From: Polyangium fumosum
GTDB taxonomy: Bacteria > Myxococcota_A > Polyangia > Polyangiales > Polyangiaceae
Direction: 5' to 3'
DNA: 64,000 nucleotides
Assembly: GCF_005144585.1 (NCBI RefSeq)
Contig: NZ_SSMQ01000029.1
Location: 1 to 64,000, forward strand
Positions 4,917 to 57,970 of this stretch are shown piece after piece; positions within the stretch are counted from its first letter, which is position 1; the number at the start of each line of letters is the position of its first letter. The notes under the pieces are model-generated. The model did not search any database and was not told the origin of the DNA. It saw only the letters and a list, made by a program, of their open reading frames with translations. A program made the translations under genes and the position numbers.

Positions 4917-5291
4917 ATGACGTCCGCCATCACGACCCTCTACCGTCCGGTTGGCCAAGCCGAGCTCGACCTCATCGCGGCGAGCGGCTCCCGCCGCTTT
5001 CCACCCCGCCTGCCGGATCAGCCGATCTTCTACCCCGTCTGCAACGAGGCGTATGCCGTCCAGATCGCGAGCCGATGGAACACGGCGCAAGGCGCAGTCG
5101 GATACGTGACGAGGTTCGAGGTCCGGTCGGACTTCCTCGCGAAGTACGACGTCCACGTGGTCGGCTCGAAGATCCACGCTGAATACTGGATCCCCGCGGA
5201 GGAACTCGAAGCCTTCAACGACGCCATCGTCGGGACGATCGAAGTCGTCAGCGAGCATCGTGCCGAGGGGCAGGGGAAGAGCGAGACATGA
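4917..5291 (+). CDS. ADP-ribosylation/crystallin J1-like small protein
   Basis: 124 aa from ATG 4917; the longer open frame upstream is the transposase relic. The sequence LYRPVGQAELDLIAASG, then FPPRLPDQPIFYPVCN, then WIPAEELEAFNDAIVG matches a conserved small family, common in cyanobacteria and myxobacteria, that databases label ADP-ribosylation/crystallin J1. Its fold resembles mono-ADP-ribosyltransferases, but enzymatic activity has not to my knowledge been shown. Its stop overlaps the start of the next gene (ATGA), so the two are translationally coupled and probably act together. Confidence 0.65.
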   Translation: MTSAITTLYRPVGQAELDLIAASGSRRFPPRLPDQPIFYPVCNEAYAVQIASRWNTAQGAVGYVTRFEVRSDFLAKYDVHVVGSKIHAEYWIPAEELEAFNDAIVGTIEVVSEHRAEGQGKSET

Positions 5292-6157
5292 GCATCGAAA
5301 CGCTCGCGGACACGGGCCTGCCGTTCAATCGAAAAGAGCGGTATTTCACGGGGACCGTCCTCCCGATGCTCGTCTGCGCGCACGACTTCGCGCACTTCGG
5401 ACGGCTCACCGAGCTCGCGGGGCTCGGGCGCGTGGAGGTCGACGGGAGCCCCCGCGGGGCGAACATCCAGTTTTTTACGGAATATGGCTTCGTGGAATCG
5501 CTGCTCGGTGAAGAGGCCGAACGTCGATTCCCCGATGCACCGACGACCCGCGACACTCCTGACGTCCTCGTCTACGTGGACGGCCCGCGCCGCGTACTGC
5601 TCGCCATCGAGGCGAAGATGTACGATCAGCCTTCAGCCGCGGACCTCGAAGAGCAGCTCCGCGCGCAAGCGGGGATTGTGGCGTATCTCCGGGACAAGCT
5701 CGGCGTCGCGCAGGAGAACGTCGCCCATGTCGCGTTGCTCCCCGAGGGGCTCGCGCGGCGGGTGGGGGGATTGTCGGTCCGAACGATCACGTGGGAAACA
5801 TTGCTCGATGTCTACGCGGACGTGGGCGCACCGTACTTCGTCGAGGTGCTGCGGGTGGCGCTGGCGCGCTACCCAGCCCTCCTGGCCAAACGCGACATGG
5901 TGTTCGGCGCGAATGCGGAAGCCAGGTGGACAGGCGAAGAGATCGTGCGGCAATACCAGGCAGGGACGCTCACGCACCCGTGGATGGGACGACGCAATGG
6001 CCTCGCGGGTGCAGAGCTCCGGGAGGACATCACGTCGGGCGCATGGCGGACGGTCCGGTACGAATGCAGCTCGAAGGGGGTCGACAACCGGAACTGGTTC
6101 GCCGTGGCCGAGTTCGTCGCCAGGGTGCAGCCGGCGGTCGCGCCCGGGAGCGGCTGA
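5288..6157 (+). CDS. PD-(D/E)XK nuclease-like protein
   Basis: 289 aa, ATG overlapping the previous stop. Residues 91-111 read PDVLVYVDGPRRVLLAIEAK: D92, E108 and K110 give the D-(x)n-ExK core of restriction-endonuclease-fold nucleases, on two beta strands with a helix to follow. E70 (GFVESLLG) could supply the helix-1 acidic residue. The rest, with RTITWETLLDVY and a C-terminal NWFAVAEF strand, is consistent with a full-length family member. Coupled to the ADP-ribosylation-like gene, this could be a small conflict or repair module. No recognisable recognition domain or methyltransferase partner is present. The 275 bp that follow (6158-6432) hold no gene. Confidence 0.6.
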   Translation: MSIETLADTGLPFNRKERYFTGTVLPMLVCAHDFAHFGRLTELAGLGRVEVDGSPRGANIQFFTEYGFVESLLGEEAERRFPDAPTTRDTPDVLVYVDGPRRVLLAIEAKMYDQPSAADLEEQLRAQAGIVAYLRDKLGVAQENVAHVALLPEGLARRVGGLSVRTITWETLLDVYADVGAPYFVEVLRVALARYPALLAKRDMVFGANAEARWTGEEIVRQYQAGTLTHPWMGRRNGLAGAELREDITSGAWRTVRYECSSKGVDNRNWFAVAEFVARVQPAVAPGSG

Positions 6158-6432
6158 TACCTCTTCACGCGGAGCAGGAAACGAGCGTGGTATCCGAGCA
6201 CGCGTCGGGTAGGCCGGGGAAGGGGTTGCCTCCGCCGGTCTACCCGACGAACCTCCCCACGCGCCTCCTCGAACGGCGCCTCGCTTCACGTCCCCGTGCG
6301 TCCCCGCACTCCGTCTCGGGCCCGCACGAGCAGCGCGCATCCGCATTCTGGCCGACCCCCGAGACGTGTGCCGCGGTACCCGCATCATCTTCCATCTTCC
6401 CTTGGTCTGCCCCGTTCGACTAGGATGCGACC

Positions 6433-48678: not shown

Positions 48679-49515
48679 ATGATCCTGCGCCGCGTCTTCG
48701 CCCTCACGTTCGCGCTTCTTGTCCCGGCCTTCGTCACCCTGTCGTCGTGCAACGACCCCGCGTGCAAGGACGGGGGCGAGGGCTGCCCATGTACGACGGG
48801 CGTCGAGTGCGGCAGGCCGCCCATGTGCACGGGGTGGATCTGCGACGGCACCTGTCGCAGCTTCAACGAGCGCGTGGGCTTCCGCTGCCGGATCGAACCC
48901 TGCGTCGACGGCGAGAAGTGTCCCGGCGTGTGCGACGGCGCGGGCACGTGCATCGGGTGCCTGCAGGACGCGGACTGCAAGCCGGGGCATACCTGCGAGG
49001 CTGGGAACGTGTGCTCGCGGTGCGATGACGGCGTGAAGAACGGGGATGAGGCCGACGTCGACTGCGGCGGTTCATGCCCGCTGTGCCCGGGGACGTGCAA
49101 CGTCGATGCTGACTGCCCTGGGGGTTACTGCTGGGAGGGCCTTTGCGCTCGGTGTGACGACGGGATCCAGAACGGAGACGAGACCGGCGTCGACTGCGGA
49201 ATGTCCGGTGGACACTGTCCCATCTGCTTCGGGGCGTTCTGCGAGTCGGGTGCGGCGTGCGCGAGCGGGTCGTGCGAAAAAGGGCTCTGCTGCTCGAAAC
49301 CCTGCCCTCTTTGCTACGATTGCGACCTTGCCGGTGAATGCTTTCCGGTAAGTATCAGCCTTTACGATACATACGGCGCGGATCCTAGCATCACTTGCAG
49401 CGGCAACTACGTCTGTGATGGCAAAGGCCGCTGCGCCCTGGATGGCGGCCAGCCCTGCACCGAGAACAATGACTGCGCCTCAGAGAAGTGCATCAGTGGA
49501 ATCTGTAAGTGGTAA
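48679..49515 (+). CDS. Cys-rich lipoprotein with repeated CDDG-NGDE motif
   Basis: 278 aa from ATG 48679; the frame opens at 48550 but the signal peptide begins here (MILRRVFALTFALLVP, lipobox LSSC). The mature part has more than 30 Cys residues. A unit CDDGVKNGDEADVDCGG is repeated (also CDDGIQNGDETGVDCG), as in myxobacterial surface Cys-rich proteins. Likely an outer-membrane-anchored or secreted lipoprotein. Partner unknown. Confidence 0.75.
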   Translation: MILRRVFALTFALLVPAFVTLSSCNDPACKDGGEGCPCTTGVECGRPPMCTGWICDGTCRSFNERVGFRCRIEPCVDGEKCPGVCDGAGTCIGCLQDADCKPGHTCEAGNVCSRCDDGVKNGDEADVDCGGSCPLCPGTCNVDADCPGGYCWEGLCARCDDGIQNGDETGVDCGMSGGHCPICFGAFCESGAACASGSCEKGLCCSKPCPLCYDCDLAGECFPVSISLYDTYGADPSITCSGNYVCDGKGRCALDGGQPCTENNDCASEKCISGICKW

Positions 49516-49534
49516 AGGGAAAACGGTAATACAA

Positions 49535-50734
49535 TCAGGGCGGGGGCTCGAATTCTGGAACGCAGCAGTATGTCACGGGCACGCCGAGGAGCACCTCGCC
49601 GACGAGCTCGCCGCCACTGGGCGGACAGACACCGGTTTGGGAGGAGAGAAGCTCCGCCGTCTTGCTGCCCAGCGCGGTCCCCGTAACGAGATCCACGCAC
49701 TTCTCGCCGTCGCTCACGGTGAGTACGAGGCTGCCGCGCTCGTTTGTACATGCAGCATCAGAGTACGCTTTTACTAGCACTTCGCATGAACCACCTTGAG
49801 GTGCGCCACAGCTACAGGCCGAGCAAGCTCTCTGCTCCTCGACTTGTCTCCAGCCGGTATGCCGATCCGACCAATCACTCGGACACGGCACGGCAGCCGC
49901 GGAGCCATAGGCGACGCGACACAGCCGGTAGCCTGGCGGGGGCGGAGCGATGCACACGCGCGCCAAATCGCAAGTGCCAAGGCTCGCCGAAACGTAGTCG
50001 ATCACCTTGGTACGGACCGGCGGGGGTAACGGTTCCCCCTCGGGCGGCATGGCGGGCTCCGCCACGCACGGGGCGGCGGTCGGTGGCTGGACGACCAACG
50101 ACCGCACACAAGGAGCTTCATTGCACAGGATGCCTGCCGGGATCTGACTCGACGAGGTGCAACTCCCGTCCCAGGCGGCCGGAGGATCGAAAGGCGTGAC
50201 GTTAGGCAGAGAAACGTCTTGACAGGCCGTGGAGTTTACTTCCCACGAGTCCGGAAGGATGCACCCCGCTGCCGGAGCCGCGCACGAGCACGTTGGGCAG
50301 TCAGGCTCGGCAAAGGTGACGTCGACCCAGTTCTCGTACGGGGTTCCAAGAAGCGGCGGAGGAGGCGGTTCCGTCTCCTTCCCCATCCACACGTACGAGG
50401 GGTAGTAGTCGAACCCGCCGCCACCGGGCGCCATGCACTCCGCGTCAGGGGGGCACCCAGACGACGAGCCCGCTTCTGGGCCTCCATCTTCGTCGCCCGC
50501 ATCGGCCTCGCCGTCGTCGCCCGCATCCGCATCGGGTTCGGCATCATCCCCGGCATCCGGCGGGCACGCGTACTTATCTCCCGGCGGGCCGCAGCACGGG
50601 ACCTCCTCGCCGTCATCGTCGAAGCAGATGGTGGTCCCCACGATGAGGCCGTTGCAACTGTCCGCGTCACAGGCAGCGAGCCCGAAGGCGATCAACGTGC
50701 CGAGGTACGAGGCGAAGGTCCTGAACGCACGCAC
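49535..50734 (-). CDS. Cys-rich lipoprotein with acidic Asp-Ala-Gly linker
   Basis: 399 aa from ATG/GTG 50734. Signal peptide MRAFRTFASYLGTLIAFGLAAC with lipobox LAAC. A stretch of Asp-Ala-Gly residues (about 60-90) precedes a Cys-rich region with repeated CSCAAP/CSCGAP. No family recognised. It faces the other Cys-rich lipoprotein, with stops 20 bp apart, but the two do not share sequence. Confidence 0.65.
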   Translation of the reverse strand: MRAFRTFASYLGTLIAFGLAACDADSCNGLIVGTTICFDDDGEEVPCCGPPGDKYACPPDAGDDAEPDADAGDDGEADAGDEDGGPEAGSSSGCPPDAECMAPGGGGFDYYPSYVWMGKETEPPPPPLLGTPYENWVDVTFAEPDCPTCSCAAPAAGCILPDSWEVNSTACQDVSLPNVTPFDPPAAWDGSCTSSSQIPAGILCNEAPCVRSLVVQPPTAAPCVAEPAMPPEGEPLPPPVRTKVIDYVSASLGTCDLARVCIAPPPPGYRLCRVAYGSAAAVPCPSDWSDRHTGWRQVEEQRACSACSCGAPQGGSCEVLVKAYSDAACTNERGSLVLTVSDGEKCVDLVTGTALGSKTAELLSSQTGVCPPSGGELVGEVLLGVPVTYCCVPEFEPPP

Positions 50735-50886
50735 GCTGTAAAGGCTAGCCTCCGGATCCAGGCAAGGTCAACGTTCGGACCCGACGGACAAACCAAGCCT
50801 GACCGCTGTCGCGCTCCACCAACGCTTGCGCCTCTCGCGCCCCCCGGGCATGCTCTGCGCTGGGGACAAACCTGGTCTCTCAGGTC

Positions 50887-51927
50887 ATGCGCGACGCCTC
50901 TTCACGCTCATGCAAGGCGCGCCTTCTGCTCGTCGCGGCCTTGGCCTGCGGCAGCTCGGAGGCCACGGCGCAGCCATCCCAGGTGCTGCCGTGGCGCCTC
51001 GACTACGCCCCCGGTCCCAACGCCCCGAAGAACTGCCCGGACAAGAGCTACATCAAGACCGCCCTCGCCACGAAGCTCAAGGGCCACGACCCCTTCACCG
51101 ACGACGCGCCGCGCTCCATCTCCGTCAAGTTGGTGCTCACGGCGCAACGGATCGAGGCGCATATCGAGGCGCGCGACGAGAACGGGGAGGTCGTCGGCAA
51201 CCACGTTACCCACGCGGAATCTTGGCGGTGCGATCAGCTCGCAGATCGCACCGTGTTCTACCTGCGCGACATCGTCGATCCCGTCGTACTTCCCCCTTCG
51301 GAGGCAGATGCAGTGCCGAACTCGTCCGCGCCCCCGGCATCATCTCCGCCGCCGCTACGTCGACCACCTGCTCCTCCGCCAAGTCGGCCAGCCGCAAAGC
51401 CCCCGATGCGCTCGCCTTGGCTCCCGCAGCTCGCCGTGTCGGCCAGCGCAGGTGCAGCCTGGTGGAGCGCCCCGAAGACGGCGCTGAGCCTTGCGGTGGG
51501 CCTCGAGGCGCGGTGGCCCCGTTTCTCCGTCGGGGTCGAAGGGTACTACGACCATGCCTGGGAATTGGCGACGCAGCAGGACGTAGCGGCTGAACGCGCG
51601 GCGCTGGCTGCGCTGGCGTGCTTTCGCCAGGATCTGTTCTCGGCTCGGGCCTTCGCTCGCGCGTGCCTCTTCGGTGACGTGGCACTTCTGTTGGTTGACG
51701 CCCAGAAGATCAAGCTCTCCGATGACGATGAGCTCGTGTTCGACCTCGGTGCGCGGGTCGGCGTCGGGTTCTGGCTCGCTCGTTTCTTGGGCCTCGAGCT
51801 CCACGGGGACGTTGCCTGCGTGCCCCGCCAGCCCGCGTTCGTGGTCGACGGCGAGAAGCTCTGGCGCTCTCCCGGTCTCAACGGCGCGGTCCGACTCGGC
51901 CTGGTTGTTCCCTTCGACATCCGGTGA
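50887..51927 (+). CDS. Secreted/envelope protein beside the ECF sigma gene
   Basis: 346 aa from ATG 50887. A signal-like start (RLLLVAALACGSSEATA) and a Pro/Ser-rich linker (PPASSPPPLRRPPAPPPSRPA at about 150-170) precede a barrel-like C-terminus with alternating strands (LAVGLEARWPRFSVGVEGYYDHA, AVRLGLVVPFDIR). In myxobacteria such a gene often precedes an ECF sigma gene of this kind. It may be the output or sensor. Uncertain function. Confidence 0.55.
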   Translation: MRDASSRSCKARLLLVAALACGSSEATAQPSQVLPWRLDYAPGPNAPKNCPDKSYIKTALATKLKGHDPFTDDAPRSISVKLVLTAQRIEAHIEARDENGEVVGNHVTHAESWRCDQLADRTVFYLRDIVDPVVLPPSEADAVPNSSAPPASSPPPLRRPPAPPPSRPAAKPPMRSPWLPQLAVSASAGAAWWSAPKTALSLAVGLEARWPRFSVGVEGYYDHAWELATQQDVAAERAALAALACFRQDLFSARAFARACLFGDVALLLVDAQKIKLSDDDELVFDLGARVGVGFWLARFLGLELHGDVACVPRQPAFVVDGEKLWRSPGLNGAVRLGLVVPFDIR

Positions 51928-51959
51928 AGTAGCTGTCGAGCAGGAAGCCGTACGATTTA

Positions 51960-51990
51960 TTGGACGGGTCGCCCATCTCGGCGCGTGTTT
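51960..51990 (+). promoter_or_regulatory. Promoter-like box A (ECF sigma gene)
   Basis: TTGGACGGGTCG, 8 nt, GGC, 1 nt, CGTGTTT. An almost identical box with the same internal spacing recurs at 53270-53300. The likely -35 part is GGACGG and the -10 part CGTGTT. Given this position, transcription of the sigma gene would begin near 51997, which supports autoregulation. Confidence 0.55.
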
Positions 51991-51996
51991 GTAGTC

Positions 51997-53238
51997 GTGC
52001 GCCTCCTGCTCCCGTTCCTGCATCACGCCAGCGACGCCTTTCTCCGCTTCTACGCGACGCACCTCCTGACCGTTCTCGGGATCCTGGCGCGAATGGGCGT
52101 GCGCCAGGCGGATGTCGACGACCTCGCACAGCTCGTCTTCGTGAAGGTCTACAAGAACTTCGACAAGGTACCGTCCGCGGGGGTCGAGGACTGGCTCAAG
52201 ATGATCTGCGATCAGCAGGCGGCGGAGCACTATCGCCTCTACCGTCACCGCTTCGAGACCCCCGAGGCAGATGTCGGCGTGGACGTGCCCAGCGACGAGA
52301 ACCCGCACGAGCGCTTCGAGCATCATGAGCTCGATCAGGTTGTCAAACGCGTGCTCAAGACCATGGACGCGGAGCTCGTCGATGTACTCGTCAGAGCCGA
52401 GTTCAAAGGGGAGTCGCTGCCGAAGATCGCCGCGGCGCTGGGGGTCTCGCGCAACACGGCGCAGGCCAGGCTCGTCGAGGCCAAGGACGTCTTCCGGCGC
52501 AGGGTGAAGAAGCTGTTCGGCCGGGATTTCACGCCGTTCATGCTGCTGCCCTTCGGCGTCGATGCCGTCTTCCGGCCCGAGGACCTCACGCCCGACTTCA
52601 TCGAGAATGCACGGCGCGAGGTCTGGCGTGGCGTCGCCGGCGAGCTCGGTTTCCACGAGGTACTTCCTCCCGCCTTGGCGCCGAACCCGTCGCCGCCCTC
52701 CGAACCGCCGGCTTCGGGCAAGCGGCTCATCCAAGCGGTCGCGCCCACGGGCTCCGGGCCTGCTGCTCGCGCCACGGTGAAGGCGGTGCTCGAGCTCATC
52801 AAGCACCCGCTCTTCCTGGTCGGCGTCGGCGCCTTGGGCGGGGGTGGCGCGGTCGCGCTCTGGCCCCGCGACGAGTCACCTGCCGCGCGGCATGTGGTGC
52901 CGATGGTGCTCTCCGTCTTGATCGACGAGAGCGGGCGTGGAGAGAGCGCCTCTGCCGTCGCGCCCCCGCCCACCCCAGGCCCGAGTGCGACCGTGGTTGT
53001 CGTCGCGCCCCCGCGCCCCTCGCCCGCCGCCGTGCCCCTCAACGACCTGGAGACAACAAACCTCGAACAAGCTCGGGAGATGCTCTCGCGCGGACAGTTC
53101 GCCGAGGCGCTCTCCACGCTGCGACAGCATGCACGGGACTACCGGGACAGTCAGCACGCGGCGGTCCGGAACAAGTACATCGCCACGGCGCTCGAGGGCC
53201 TGCGGCAGAACGAGCAGAAGAGCGGCAGCACGCCCTGA
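51997..53238 (+). CDS. ECF-type RNA polymerase sigma factor with C-terminal membrane/TPR tail
   Basis: 413 aa from GTG 51997 (the frame opens at 51985, inside the promoter-like box, so a leaderless start is suggested). Region 2: ADVDDLAQLVFVKVYKNFDKV. Region 4: VDVLVRAEFKGESLPKIAAALGVSRNTAQARLVEAKDVF. Beyond about residue 215 a Pro-rich linker, one transmembrane helix (LFLVGVGALGGGGAVALW) and a short helical tail with TPR-like residues follow. Fusion of a sigma factor to a membrane tail makes it self-tethering in place of an anti-sigma factor. Anti-sigma genes are not adjacent. Confidence 0.85.
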   Translation: MRLLLPFLHHASDAFLRFYATHLLTVLGILARMGVRQADVDDLAQLVFVKVYKNFDKVPSAGVEDWLKMICDQQAAEHYRLYRHRFETPEADVGVDVPSDENPHERFEHHELDQVVKRVLKTMDAELVDVLVRAEFKGESLPKIAAALGVSRNTAQARLVEAKDVFRRRVKKLFGRDFTPFMLLPFGVDAVFRPEDLTPDFIENARREVWRGVAGELGFHEVLPPALAPNPSPPSEPPASGKRLIQAVAPTGSGPAARATVKAVLELIKHPLFLVGVGALGGGGAVALWPRDESPAARHVVPMVLSVLIDESGRGESASAVAPPPTPGPSATVVVVAPPRPSPAAVPLNDLETTNLEQAREMLSRGQFAEALSTLRQHARDYRDSQHAAVRNKYIATALEGLRQNEQKSGSTP

Positions 53239-53247
53239 CCAGCCTCT

Positions 53248-53269
53248 TGCACGCAGGCGTGCACTTTTC
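53248..53269 (+). terminator. Terminator after the ECF sigma gene
   Basis: TGCACG/CGTGCA stem with CAGG loop at 53248-53263, followed by CTTTTC. It begins 10 bp after the sigma gene stop and just before promoter-like box B. Confidence 0.5.
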
Positions 53270-53300
53270 TTGGACGGGTCGACAGCGTCGGCTCGTGTTT
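53270..53300 (+). promoter_or_regulatory. Promoter-like box B, ahead of the wHTH operon
   Basis: TTGGACGGGTCG, 8 nt, GGC, 1 nt, CGTGTTT, the same as box A in spacing and 22 fixed positions. A transcript from here would begin around 53307. It would read into the small ORF at 53315 and the winged-helix operon. This makes the operon a candidate regulon of the ECF sigma factor. Confidence 0.55.
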
Positions 53301-53314
53301 AGAGAGTAAGGGAC

Positions 53315-53404
53315 ATGCGGCTTCTGCGCCCGGCCATGGTCGCCGGCACGCGGGCGCGTTTGTCCTCGCGAATCATCATCATCCGCAGACGGCCGCGGTG
53401 CTGA
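53315..53404 (+). CDS. Short basic leader peptide candidate (29 aa)
   Basis: ATG 53315 follows AAGGGAC at good spacing, 15 bp after promoter-like box B. The peptide (MRLLRPAMVAGTRARLSSRI and RRRPRC) is very basic and ends at TGA 53402-53404. A 65-aa frame starting at GTG 53398 overlaps it (LRAIIALIVIPVV hydrophobic segment). Neither is recognised and both are weak. The rest of 53239-53655 shows no gene. Confidence 0.25.
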   Translation: MRLLRPAMVAGTRARLSSRIIIIRRRPRC

Positions 53405-53655
53405 GCGCGCGTTGGAGGGCGTTCGTCGAGGCATACCACCGCGGTCGCCTGGGGATGGTGATATTCGCTCGAAGGAGGTCGCGGGACACTGCTCGCATTC
53501 GCCAGCCCAGGTTCCGCGCCCGCCTCCGGGCGATCATCGCTCTGATCGTCATTCCTGTCGTCCGCGGCGTTCCCAAGTCGACGTCGCACGGCTGACGACA
53601 AGCAGCTTCGCGGCTTCTTCAGCCGCAGACGGCATTCGTGCGCCCGGAGGAGTAC

Positions 53656-54396
53656 ATGGCCGACGAGGAAGAAGACGAAGCCGCCACGCGCGTGTTGACG
53701 CGCCCGGCTGCGAGCCATGAAGAGGACGACAACGCCCCCACGGCGTTCTTCGTGCGGCCGGCTCCGCCCGCGCCTCCCGCTCCCGCCATGTCGATCCCGG
53801 TGAGGTCCTTGTGGTGGCGCGTGCTCATCGGCGTCTTGTCCTTCTGGCGGCGCCGCCCTGTAGCAGCGGTTGTCGCTGCTCCGGCGCCGGCCCCTGCACC
53901 TGCGCGTCCGGCGGCCTCTGCGTCGACATCGCACGTGCACGTGTCCGCGCACAGGGCGGCGCGCAGGCCCATCCCCACGCTCGTCTCGCCTCTCTCCCCA
54001 GGACGGCGCGCCATTGTCGACGAGGTGCACACGTTACTCTGGAGCTTCGAGCCTCACGAGCTTGAGGCGACGGCGAAGCTCATCGAGCACATCGCCGCAG
54101 CTAGGCTCGCGGGGCCGGAGGGGCGCGTCGAGGCGCAGATCATCTACGCGCTCATGTACATGCGCCCTGACGAAGACGGAACGGTCGGCCTCGCTGTTCT
54201 GCGGGGCAAGCTCCTCGGGCTCGCTCGATCCGCAGTGGACCAAGCGCTCTTTCATCTCGAAGAGCAAGGCCAAGTTGTACTTCGTCCTGCGGATCCGCTC
54301 TCCGGGACACGACAAGTTGCTGCCGGGATCGAGCATGCAACGCGAGGGCTACTCGAGCGCGTCGCTCTCGTTGCACAAGCGAGGAGAGCGTCTTGA
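53656..54396 (+). CDS. Winged-helix-like protein with Pro/Ala linker
   Basis: 246 aa from ATG 53656, chosen because GGAGG precedes it; the frame opens at 53638. A low-complexity acidic then Pro/Ala-rich N-terminus (a possible membrane segment RSLWWRVLIGVLSF) leads to a helical domain at about 125-240: RAIVDEVHTLLW, AQIIYALMYMR, LAVLRGKLLGLARSAVDQALFHLEEQGQVVLRP. The last block is a winged-helix pattern also seen in the next gene and in the protein at 55684. First of a coupled operon. Confidence 0.5.
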   Translation: MADEEEDEAATRVLTRPAASHEEDDNAPTAFFVRPAPPAPPAPAMSIPVRSLWWRVLIGVLSFWRRRPVAAVVAAPAPAPAPARPAASASTSHVHVSAHRAARRPIPTLVSPLSPGRRAIVDEVHTLLWSFEPHELEATAKLIEHIAAARLAGPEGRVEAQIIYALMYMRPDEDGTVGLAVLRGKLLGLARSAVDQALFHLEEQGQVVLRPADPLSGTRQVAAGIEHATRGLLERVALVAQARRAS

Positions 54397-54926
54397 GCGG
54401 CGAGCGCGCCACAACACGTACGCTGGGCGGCGCCAATGCGCAGGCCGCGCCGATCTCGACAAACCCGCCGTCGACGATCCGACCTTCCCCGCCTGGGCCC
54501 CCACCCGTCGAGCCTCGAAGACGTCATCGCACGCCGATCGAGGAGGTGAACGATGTCCTCCGGCAGCTCCGCATCCCCGAGCTCGCCGACGTCCTGCTGT
54601 ACGCGCAGCGCACCCTCGCCGCGCGTGACGCAGGTCCAGATCCGGCCGTCGTGAGCGAGATCCTCGCGGCGATGAGCCGGCTTCATCCGGCCTACAAGAA
54701 CACGCAGGGCGTGCCGCTGCCGATCCTCCGCGGGGCTCTTGCTCGGGTTCCTCGAGCCGCATTCGAGGCGGCTCTTCTCCATGCAGAGCGAGAGGGCACG
54801 CTCAAGCTCATCCCTGTTCCTCTGCTCGTGCCGTTCATCGAGCGGCAGGCGGGCATCCAGGACCCGAAGCGGGGCCTACTTTACTTCTGTACCGCTCGGG
54901 AGGCACGCGGGCGGCGGGAGCCCTGA
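54393..54926 (+). CDS. Winged-helix-like protein, second of the operon
   Basis: 177 aa from TTG 54393 overlapping the upstream stop (TTGA). A Pro-rich N-terminus precedes a two-part helical domain: IEEVNDVLRQLRIPELADVLL, then VSEILAAMSRLHP, LPILRGALARVPRAAFEAALLHAEREGTLKLIPV. The same L-x-x-LRG-x-L-x-x-x-x-R-x-x-F/V-x-x-A-L pattern as in the previous protein shows they are paralogues. The C-terminus ends RGLLYFCTA. Confidence 0.5.
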   Translation: MSGERATTRTLGGANAQAAPISTNPPSTIRPSPPGPPPVEPRRRHRTPIEEVNDVLRQLRIPELADVLLYAQRTLAARDAGPDPAVVSEILAAMSRLHPAYKNTQGVPLPILRGALARVPRAAFEAALLHAEREGTLKLIPVPLLVPFIERQAGIQDPKRGLLYFCTAREARGRREP

Positions 54927-54927
54927 C

Positions 54928-55296
54928 ATGGGCCGCCGACACGAGCCGGATCCGTTTGCCCTCAAACTAGGTCATCGGATCAGGGATCTGCGCCTCGCAC
55001 AGGGGATGTCGCTCGAGCACCTCAGAAGGAAGACCGGCATCGTCGCGAGCCACCTGTCGCTCATCGAGCGCGGTTACGTCGCGATCAACGTTGGCACCCT
55101 CGATCGCATCGCACGCGCTCTCGGCTTGACGCCGATGTTCCTGGTGCTGTTCCCGGAGGAAAGTGAACTCGAGGCAGTCGTCGAGCAGATCGGCAGCATG
55201 AGCGCGGAGGAGCTCGCGCAGCTCCGCGAACAGGTGTCCGCCTCGAGCCCACGGCCAGAGAAGCCGCGCCCTTCGCGTGGAACTCGTCGAACGTAG
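54928..55296 (+). CDS. XRE-family regulator
   Basis: 122 aa from ATG 54928, one base after the previous stop. An XRE helix-turn-helix spans residues 13-70: LGHRIRDLRLAQGMSLEHLRRKTGIVASHLSLIERGYVAINVGTLDRIARALG. A 45-residue C-terminus follows (LEAVVEQIGSMSAEELAQLREQV). It is probably the operon's own regulator. Confidence 0.8.
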   Translation: MGRRHEPDPFALKLGHRIRDLRLAQGMSLEHLRRKTGIVASHLSLIERGYVAINVGTLDRIARALGLTPMFLVLFPEESELEAVVEQIGSMSAEELAQLREQVSASSPRPEKPRPSRGTRRT

Positions 55297-55360
55297 AGCA
55301 CCAAGTGGTCGAACTCGACAGATAACCGGATGAGCCTCGACAGCAGATGGGGATGAACGA

Positions 55361-55594
55361 GTGCCACGGCATGCAAGCGAAGAACCCAAGGTCAGGCTCA
55401 ACATGGAGCTTCCCGAGCGCCTCCGTGGCAGGCTCGATCAGCTGCGCGCGATGAGCGAGGCCGGCACGATCACCCAGGTGGTGAAGAGAGCCGTGACCCT
55501 GTACGACGTGCTGCTCTCGGCGATCCGAAACAGACGGGAGAGGATCATCCTGCGCAGCGCCGACGGCACGGAGCGCGAGCTGCTCATCCCGTGA
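55361..55594 (+). CDS. Small ribbon-helix-helix-like protein
   Basis: 77 aa from GTG 55361. KVRLNMELPERLRGRLDQLRAMSEAGTITQVVKRAVTLYDVLLSAI resembles a ribbon-helix-helix dimer unit with a basic N-terminal strand. Small antitoxin-like regulators have this size and fold. No toxin gene is next to it. Confidence 0.45.
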   Translation: MPRHASEEPKVRLNMELPERLRGRLDQLRAMSEAGTITQVVKRAVTLYDVLLSAIRNRRERIILRSADGTERELLIP

Positions 55595-55683
55595 TCTTTC
55601 CTTCCCACGTGCTCCACTGGGACGACCAGGCAGGGTTTGTCCTCTCTTGCAGTTTGCCCCGGAACATGCGATCGAGGGGCTCG

Positions 55684-56643
55684 ATGTCCTCCGCTCGTCC
55701 GCCTCCCGCGTCGTTCGAGCCCCCGCCTCCGCCCTCGCGAAGGCGGCTCAGAACGGGGCCCGGCGCGTTCGATGTCCTCTCGCGGGACGGCGCGGCCGCG
55801 GTTCTGCTCTTCGCCCGTGCCAAGCTCGAAGCTGAGCGTCGGCGTGCACCGGGGCTCGTGAACGGATCCCTGCGCGCCTTCGCCTCTCGCGTGGAGTCAG
55901 CGGCTCGCCGCGTGACCGAAGGGGTACATGACGATGGCGTGTTCATCGCACCGCTCTTCCGCCTGCTCCGTGGGCGTGACGAGGTCCCGTCCTTCCCGAC
56001 GCTGTCGGCGTTCAAGGCGCGGCTGCTCCAAGCGTACAACCGCGGGCTCCTCGAACTCGCCACCTGCGAGCGCGCCGAGGACGTGAACCCCTTGATGGTC
56101 GCCGCATCTGCGGTTCGTTTGCGACGAACGACGTTTCATCTCGTGCGGCGATGGTCGCGTCGGAACATCTTCTCCGCGCTCGGCGACGTCGTCGCAGCGC
56201 TCTCTCCCAAGGCTTACGCCGCAGCCAAAGACTTCGCGCGCAAGGTCCACGATGATGAAAAGCGCCGCGAAGGGCGCCCGCGTTTGATCACGCTTCCGCT
56301 CGACGCATTTGCCGCCCGCGTGCAGACCGTGGTCAATGAAGGCTCGCACGACGCGCTCATCGTGGAGCTGTTCCGTGAGTTCGATGAACGCGGTGAAGCG
56401 ACGGGACTCGGCCTTCGGGCGTTCAAGGCGCGCCTTCGCGCCGCGCATCGTGCGGGCTCGCTCGAGCTGCGAGCTTGCGAAGCGAGGGATGGTGGGGACA
56501 GCGAGATCGTGCAGGCGTCCGCGGTCGATCACGGGGGCATGACGTTGCACCTCGTATGCCGGACGGCGATGCCGTTGCCGATCCCGTGGGGTCGGCCGAC
56601 GCTGCTCTTGCGGCGCGTGAGGGCTACCATGATGCAGGCTTGA
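55684..56643 (+). CDS. Protein with duplicated domain shared with the STAND-cluster membrane protein
   Basis: 319 aa from ATG 55684 (GAGGGG precedes; the frame opens at 55591). The two halves repeat: LRAFASRVESAARR / FVIAPLFRLL / AFKARLLQAYNRGLLEL / TFHLVRR and LDAFAARVQTVVNEG / LIVELFREF / AFKARLRAAHRAGSLEL / TLHLVCR. The same order is found once at the C-terminus of the 233-aa protein at 18475-19176. The repeat length is about 105 residues. It ends the winged-helix operon. Family not named with confidence. Confidence 0.55.
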   Translation: MSSARPPPASFEPPPPPSRRRLRTGPGAFDVLSRDGAAAVLLFARAKLEAERRRAPGLVNGSLRAFASRVESAARRVTEGVHDDGVFIAPLFRLLRGRDEVPSFPTLSAFKARLLQAYNRGLLELATCERAEDVNPLMVAASAVRLRRTTFHLVRRWSRRNIFSALGDVVAALSPKAYAAAKDFARKVHDDEKRREGRPRLITLPLDAFAARVQTVVNEGSHDALIVELFREFDERGEATGLGLRAFKARLRAAHRAGSLELRACEARDGGDSEIVQASAVDHGGMTLHLVCRTAMPLPIPWGRPTLLLRRVRATMMQA

Positions 56644-56700
56644 AAGCCTAGGTTCAGCCTGCCGTTGTCACTCGGCTGGAAGGGCCCTTCCCTGCAGGGA

Positions 56701-57459
56701 TCAGCGCGGAGCGGGCGCGGGGCGCGCCTCGAACTCCTCCGGCCTCTGCCGCCAGCGCTCGGCCACGAACCGCTCGATGCCCACGACGCTGCTGTCTTTC
56801 GACTCCGGCGGGTACCGGAGCTCGACCATCACCCCGTGCTCCTTGCCGTCCTTGAGCACATCCAACAACGCCGCTGCCGTGGGCGCGTCGCGGCGGATGT
56901 AGCCGGTGATCGCCGCGCCGTCTGGGTCGCGTAGCTCGATGGACTGGTGGGTCTGCTCCGCGTCGTCGTAGTCGAAGTTGTAGTAGTCCGTGAGCTTCGC
57001 CCAGACGCGGAAGAGGTAGGTCCCCTTCAGCCGTTGCGTCCGGAAGAACGGCAGCGAGACGGGGTTGTATCCAACCGAGGATCGCCAGTCGAGCTTGAGG
57101 CCCTCTGCCGTCTTCTTGAAGTGGTAATAGTCCCGCTTGTTCTTGCCGAAGACGACCTCGACGCTGCAGTAGTCGCCCTCGTTCATCTTCGCGCAGCCGT
57201 CGGCCTCGATCGACTCGAACGGCTTCTTGCAGTCCTTCTGGTCCTTGTAGTGCTCGGCGAGCGCGGCGCGGTTCGCCTCGGGGTCGAGGATGAACTTGGC
57301 GCGGTCGAGGCAACTGTCCTGGTTCAGGTAGTCGCGCACGATGCTCGATGCGTCGCGGGAACATCCAGCCAGGAGCACGCTGTTCGCCAGCATGAACGCG
57401 AGGGGCACGATCATCGACGCCGCAGAGGGCACGCTCGTGGGAGTGGGAAACCGATGCAT
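56701..57459 (-). CDS. Lipoprotein of unknown function (opposite the XRE gene)
   Basis: 252 aa from ATG 57459; upstream frame to 57783 is non-coding. Signal MHRFPTPTSVPSAASMIVPLA and lipobox LLAGC. The mature region has few landmark motifs (YHFKKTAEGLKLDWRSSVGYN, FRVWAKLTDYYNF). It is divergent from the XRE regulator at 57544, so the operator between them may control it. Confidence 0.55.
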   Translation of the reverse strand: MHRFPTPTSVPSAASMIVPLAFMLANSVLLAGCSRDASSIVRDYLNQDSCLDRAKFILDPEANRAALAEHYKDQKDCKKPFESIEADGCAKMNEGDYCSVEVVFGKNKRDYYHFKKTAEGLKLDWRSSVGYNPVSLPFFRTQRLKGTYLFRVWAKLTDYYNFDYDDAEQTHQSIELRDPDGAAITGYIRRDAPTAAALLDVLKDGKEHGVMVELRYPPESKDSSVVGIERFVAERWRQRPEEFEARPAPAPR

Positions 57460-57473
57460 CGCGACGCCACGAT

Positions 57474-57506
57474 ACACGATCGTGTTGGTTGTCAACACCA
57501 TCGTGT
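57474..57506. promoter_or_regulatory. Paired palindromic operator
   Basis: ACACGATCGTGT at 57474-57485 is a perfect palindrome. ACACCATCGTGT at 57495-57506 differs at one position and starts 21 bp away, two helical turns. They sit between the divergent lipoprotein and XRE genes. The XRE protein is the obvious candidate binder. Confidence 0.6.
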
Positions 57507-57543
57507 GTTCACCTGAAGCGTCATCCCCGCGACGTTCGGCGCC

Positions 57544-57861
57544 GTGGACTTCGGCAAGGAAGTGCGGCGGCGACGAGAGGCGCTGGGCCTGACCCTGGAG
57601 CAGCTCGCGGAGCGTGCCCGGCTCACGCCGAACTACATCGGGGGCATCGAGGCCGGCCGGCGTGACCCCTCGCTGTCGAGCGTTCTCGCGCTCGCGAAGG
57701 GCCTGGGGGTGCCGCCGGGCGAGCTCGTGGGAGGCATCCACGACCTCGAGCCGGCCGCTATCGAGGCAGCACGGCTCTTCCAAGGCGCGTCCGAGGACGT
57801 CCAGGATGCCGTTCTCCGCCTCCTACGTGCAGTGACGCGGGGACGGCGGCGAAGCGGGTGA
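57544..57861 (+). CDS. XRE-family regulator
   Basis: 105 aa from GTG. XRE helix-turn-helix: DFGKEVRRRREALGLTLEQLAERARLTPNYIGGIEAGRRDPSLSSVLALAKGLG. A short helical C-terminus follows. The paired palindrome upstream suggests autoregulation. Confidence 0.8.
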   Translation: MDFGKEVRRRREALGLTLEQLAERARLTPNYIGGIEAGRRDPSLSSVLALAKGLGVPPGELVGGIHDLEPAAIEAARLFQGASEDVQDAVLRLLRAVTRGRRRSG

Positions 57862-57970
57862 GCCGGGCCTGGGGCGGGGCCTAGCGGGAGCCCGTCTGGC
57901 AACCATGGGGACCATCACCACGGTCGCTGCGGACTCCCCCGCCGCGCAGGGCGAGGATGCGGCTCGGGGC

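Follow-up and report, generated by a model that had tools for sequence, protein, structure and literature searches.

In the window analysed here, a stretch of 64,000 nt of Polyangium fumosum DNA, the gene of an ECF sigma factor is flanked by two promoter-like boxes, which raises the question of whether both are read by the sigma factor encoded between them. The original prediction had described two equally spaced boxes and had taken them to be the recognition sequence of the sigma factor, through which it would regulate its own gene and a neighbouring operon encoding winged-helix proteins. The description of the boxes proved exact: TTGGACGGGTCG-N8-GGCNCGTGTTT was present at both positions (Table 1) with all 23 fixed positions matching in each, and the 31-base pattern gave no match in 100 dinucleotide shuffles of the window. 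Inside one module, box 1 and box 2 agree in their two blocks alone, the spacer and the flanks being different, and no standard sigma-70 promoter was found near either box. The locus belongs to a module of about 9 kb (window 48700-57900; L025, L026 and L041-L045), of which a Polyangium genome has up to three copies, at different loci and with about 88% identity; some copies miss parts. Comparison of the copies makes it very probable that both boxes are used as promoters by the ECF sigma factor whose gene they flank; this factor would thereby amplify its own synthesis and control the operon.

Table 1. Features of the sigma factor locus, in the coordinates of the window
Feature	Position	Strand	Details
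Conserved gene upstream of sigma	50887..51927	+	N-terminal signal-like segment, no Pfam family; stop codon 51925-51927
Box 1	51960..51990	+	Predicted ECF promoter of the sigma gene; -35 TTGGACGGGTCG 51960-51971, -10 region GGCGCGTGTTT 51980-51990
Predicted transcript start and start codon of sigma	51994..51999	+	Transcript start about 51994-51997, probable start codon GTG 51997-51999; GTG/ATG interchange, no Shine-Dalgarno, ECF promoter geometry
ECF sigma gene	51997..53238	+	413 aa; sigma2, sigma4, linker, hydrophobic segment (residues 272-290), helical C-terminal domain
Terminator-like hairpin with T-rich tail	53248..53269	+	Between sigma stop and box 2; TGCACGCAGGCGTGCA-CTTTTC
Box 2	53270..53300	+	Second promoter-like copy; -35 53270-53281, -10 region 53290-53300
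22 invariant bases	53302..53323	+	Directly past box 2; the second transcript is predicted to begin here (at about 53304-53307)
Hairpin H1	53375..53462	+	In the leader; 26-bp stem; covariation; more stable as + strand RNA
Winged-helix protein 1	53656..54396	+	246 aa; GGAGGAG-TAC-ATG at its start; opens the predicted target operon
Winged-helix protein 2	54393..54926	+	177 aa; paralog of protein 1; overlaps the stop codon of protein 1
XRE-type helix-turn-helix regulator	54928..55296	+	122 aa; starts one base past the preceding stop codon

Random scatter of the pattern was clearly ruled out by genome searches. When up to three mismatches were allowed, the genome to which the window belongs (12.98 Mb) contained only five sites, all beside three paralogous sigma genes that were 88-90% identical to each other: two in the window, two on contig C24 (2818 and 4132) and one on C162 (54241). 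The reversed pattern gave no match in this genome. A second box does exist on C162, where it has lost one base (TTGGAC-GGTCG) and was thus missed by the pattern search. The same sigma clade was also found in the Polyangium genomes G001, G004 and G005, and a search of six Polyangium genomes (about 75 Mb) for TTGGAC-N18-CGTGTNT returned 20 matches, of which 19 were located at sigma genes of the clade, compared with one match for the reversed control. The 20th match, on G003:C63, had no sigma gene near it and belongs to a genome that lacks the clade.

Box 1 was located just before the start of the sigma gene in all 12 copies of the clade, which are spread over four Polyangium genomes, always with 18 nt between TTGGAC and CGTGT; this comparison supports the predicted autoregulation. 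Of these copies, the 10 with the winged-helix operon downstream of sigma also had box 2, in one case with a 1-nt deletion, and the two without the operon lacked it; this co-occurrence supports the operon as the predicted target. Nine close modules in four genomes each carried one box directly upstream of the start of the sigma gene and another just past its stop, but these modules are recent duplicates (about 88% identical over about 9 kb) and amount to few independent observations. Because of this, the independence of the comparative evidence rests on two more divergent types. In L047 (G004 at 13.15 Mb) the sigma factor is only 40% identical, yet box 1 reads TTGGACCGTCTG-N8-CCGGCGTGTCT just before the start and box 2 reads TTGGACGGGCTG-N8-CCGGCGTGTTC two bases past the sigma stop codon, with unchanged spacing. 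In the second type, represented by C174 in the same genome as the window and by G001:C6, the sigma factors are 41-43% identical, box 1 reads TTGGACGCCCGG-N8-GGCGCGTGTAT, and neither a second box nor a winged-helix operon follows the sigma gene. A sigma remnant was seen at the end of contig G002:C29 (L073), where the C-terminal half and box 2 are kept, the sigma2-sigma4 part is missing and the spacer of box 2 is 1 nt shorter.

Within an alignment of the nine close copies, the box blocks were 96-98% pairwise identical, compared with 79-89% for the spacers, the upstream gap and the third codon positions of the sigma gene (79% for the upstream gap, 79% for the box 2 spacer and 86% for the third codon positions) and 64% for the stretch between box 1 and the start codon. 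A coding cause for the box was rejected, as the -10 lies 6 nt from the start in most copies but 5 nt from it in L047, a difference that changes the frame; the intergenic position of box 2 also contradicts it.

TTGGAC-N18-CGTGT was the invariant core over 21 sites, and a gap of 18 nt gave 19 distinct sites among the loci examined, compared with none to two for the other gaps from 12 to 25 nt. This core has the geometry of an ECF promoter, which supports the prediction that it is the recognition sequence of the sigma factor. A CGT in the -10 element and positive autoregulation are hallmarks of ECF sigma factors (PMC8103513), and the CGTGT of the -10 was unchanged in the 21 sites. The AAC that is usual, if not universal, in the -35 of ECF promoters was absent, TTGGAC being equally unchanged in the 21 sites; this departure of the GGAC core from the common AAC counts against the assignment, but AAC has been described as a hallmark of the early studied ECFs only (PMC8103513).

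The nearness of a promoter does not by itself name its reader, and with 30 matches to ECF-like sigma factors in the genome the boxes might instead serve another of the cell's sigma factors as promoters, as in a cascade. We regard this as unlikely, since the boxes are found only at sigma genes of the clade, are kept in divergent paralogs and track the recognition helix, whilst G003, which lacks the clade, has no box bar the stray match described above. The recognition helix SRNTAQARL is common to all three box-bearing sigma types; in the box-free relatives C151, G002:C95 and L089-L091 (26-28% identity), which have the same gene order (lipoprotein-like gene, envelope-like gene, sigma, winged helix), the helix is ARSTVQLRL. 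As judged from these sequences, recognition helix and box go together, the nearest equivalent at hand to a biochemical test of recognition.

If the clade sigma factor is the reader, polymerase carrying it would recognize TTGGAC as the -35 and CGTGT as the -10, and the position of box 1 bears on where the sigma gene starts. Box 1 had been thought to overlap the start of the gene; it does overlap the first possible GTG of the ORF (51985), whereas the likely start, GTG 51997, lies past the box. GTG 51985 is situated within the -10 element, so a transcript made from box 1 could not include it. Codon 51997 is GTG in six and ATG in three of the nine close copies, lies 6 nt past the -10 block and is not accompanied by a Shine-Dalgarno sequence. 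It is probably the start codon, and the sigma mRNA is probably leaderless, since an ECF promoter in the position of box 1 would be expected to start its transcript at this GTG. Transcription from box 1 would then begin at about 51997 and the sigma factor would amplify its own synthesis.

The sigma protein matched TIGR02937 (58.7 bits over residues 18-169) and, above the cut-off, Sigma70_r2, with a weak sigma4; its closest solved structures are ECF sigmas, and sigma2 and sigma4 are its only promoter-binding domains. A hydrophobic segment was located at the same place C-terminal to sigma4 in all eight aligned proteins (hydropathy 1.25-2.19), the transmembrane prediction being weak in several copies (maximum hydropathy 1.25-1.64). 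The single-sequence model, in which the C-terminal part consisted of helices alone, was poor (pLDDT 49), too poor for fold comparison. A search of Pfam and NCBIfam revealed no anti-sigma domain fused to the sigma protein, and Pfam gave no zinc-finger, carbohydrate-binding, FecR-like or TPR match in it. Because no recognisable anti-sigma gene was adjacent to the sigma gene, we propose that the sigma factor is probably held inactive by its own C-terminal extension, comprising the hydrophobic segment and the helical domain, and that an envelope signal would release it. The gene before sigma was conserved in every module with enough flank read. This envelope-like gene (50887-51927) and an acidic lipoprotein-like gene on the minus strand (49535-50734) are both conserved, with families unassigned, and are candidates for sensing.

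Membrane-tethered ECF factors include IutY and SCO4117 (PMC8999054). The protein resembles the ECF52/53/243-like membrane-tethered sigmas in combining sigma2-sigma4, a hydrophobic segment and a further domain in one polypeptide without a separate anti-sigma (PMC8999054), but differs from them in having no zinc-finger, carbohydrate-binding or FecR-like domain, in its helical C-terminal part and in being Polyangium-specific. With ECF42 it shares a helical C-terminal extension that may bind a partner; the differences here are the lack of a TPR family match, the hydrophobic segment before the extension and the lack of a recognised YCII-type neighbour.

Downstream of the sigma gene, the terminator that had been predicted before box 2 is real in form and is kept in most copies, though a scan yields one such site per shuffle by chance. 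The winged-helix operon does lie downstream of box 2, as had been claimed, but not directly, since a structured leader of about 350 nt intervenes. The winged-helix assignment comes from an AlphaFold model of moderate quality, with pLDDT reaching 93 in the domain, and from its top Foldseek matches, which were winged-helix regulators with E about 0.01; none of the family libraries names these proteins, and defence annotation gave only generic XRE helix-turn-helix matches. As XRE and winged-helix regulators are encoded in the downstream operon, the boxes could be operators for these regulators rather than promoter elements. This reading is very unlikely, because the blocks are neither palindromic nor repeats of one another, because the fixed 18-nt gap and the CGT block correspond to ECF promoter geometry, and because box 1 persists in C174 and C6, where no winged-helix operon comes after the sigma gene. 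That the likeness of the boxes is a by-product of module duplication, box 2 being a copy of box 1 in a multi-copy module about 88% identical over about 9 kb, or marks a recombination or mobility site without promoter function, is scarcely credible, as within modules only the blocks match, the blocks are more conserved than nearby DNA and survive in 40%-identical paralogs, and plasmid and phage collections contained no match.

With box 2 taken as a promoter of the sigma factor, an mRNA from about 53307, beyond the terminator-like hairpin of the sigma gene, would comprise the folded leader, the two winged-helix proteins and the XRE regulator. The leader folded far better than shuffles (z -3.25 in the window, -4.30 in L047 and -7.89 in C151). 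A hairpin of the H1 type was found in every module with the operon, differing in sequence and alike in shape, and 12 of the 26 pairs of H1 were changed on both sides (10 distinct variants). In an alignment of the two arms joined, with the loops omitted, 90% of cells paired compared with 78% in shuffles, a percentage that is biased upward because the arms were picked by pairing, and the covariation score was 0.414 compared with 0.192; the double changes are less affected by this selection than the percentage paired. The first hairpin was in every case more stable as + strand RNA than as its complement, which fits transcription from box 2.

Long covarying hairpins with the arm motif CGYAGNCGGCC were located in the window (53375-53462), in L047 (about 5170-5258), in L076 (about 5970-6190) and in L089-L091. 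Leader hairpins were also present in modules without promoter boxes, most of which carry two. The hairpin pattern gave 15 matches within the genus, in modules only, and two matches in other genera that look like chance. An interspersed repeat was rejected, since the leader DNA was confined to the three modules of its own genome and the hairpin pattern to modules of the genus. A conserved small ORF after box 2 was likewise rejected: the frame opened by ATG 53315 runs unbroken across the conserved block in C27 and G002 alone, with a frameshift or a stop in the other copies, and the stretch was therefore treated as non-coding. In the C24 and C27 modules about 160 nt of the leader are absent (compared with window 53462-53640; L025 and L041), the leader ending after the first hairpin (GGATGGTGA), so the part past the first hairpin may be dispensable or may have been lost.

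Like known structured 5' leaders of regulatory operons, this leader is long and folded, has compensatory changes and precedes a regulator gene; it differs in being restricted to Polyangium modules and in matching no family in a gathering scan of Rfam 15 with the leader hairpin. Tentatively, and with the balance somewhat against it, the box 2 transcript may begin with an undescribed structured RNA family, made up of tandem long hairpins in which the CGYAGNCGGCC arm covaries with its partner; this RNA would control the winged-helix operon, for instance through binding of the winged-helix protein encoded after it. The tethered, self-amplifying sigma factor would thereby be coupled to RNA-level feedback in a module that is multiplying within Polyangium genomes. 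The regulators of the operon plausibly tune the response or end it, and would provide feedback together with the folded leader.

Autoregulated ECF sigmas of the RpoE and SigW type likewise consist of sigma2-sigma4, have a bipartite promoter with a CGT -10 before their own gene and control one neighbouring operon (PMC8103513). The Polyangium system differs from these in its TTGGAC rather than AAC-type -35, in the lack of a recognised anti-sigma, in its probably leaderless start and in its number of promoters, with only two in each module and, at the stringency of the search, no others in the genome. Overall, it is a sound further example of a familiar principle, to which it adds a motif of its own, a start that is probably leaderless and a leader RNA not reported before. 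No paper on this sigma clade was found in the literature, and for this uncharacterised myxobacterial ECF clade the comparisons point to a highly specific sigma-promoter pair, TTGGAC-N18-CGTGT being nearly absent elsewhere in 13-Mb genomes. The pair offers a test case for promoter-code prediction, for leaderless starts in myxobacteria and for tethered sigma factors without an anti-sigma, and its study has brought to light a covarying family of leader hairpins.

Distant winged-helix paralogs at C123, G003:C86 and G004:319k had neither a box nor such a leader hairpin directly upstream. The distant paralogs L124, L125 and L126 (31-33% identity) lie in a separate, sigma-free context that is conserved between Polyangium genomes.
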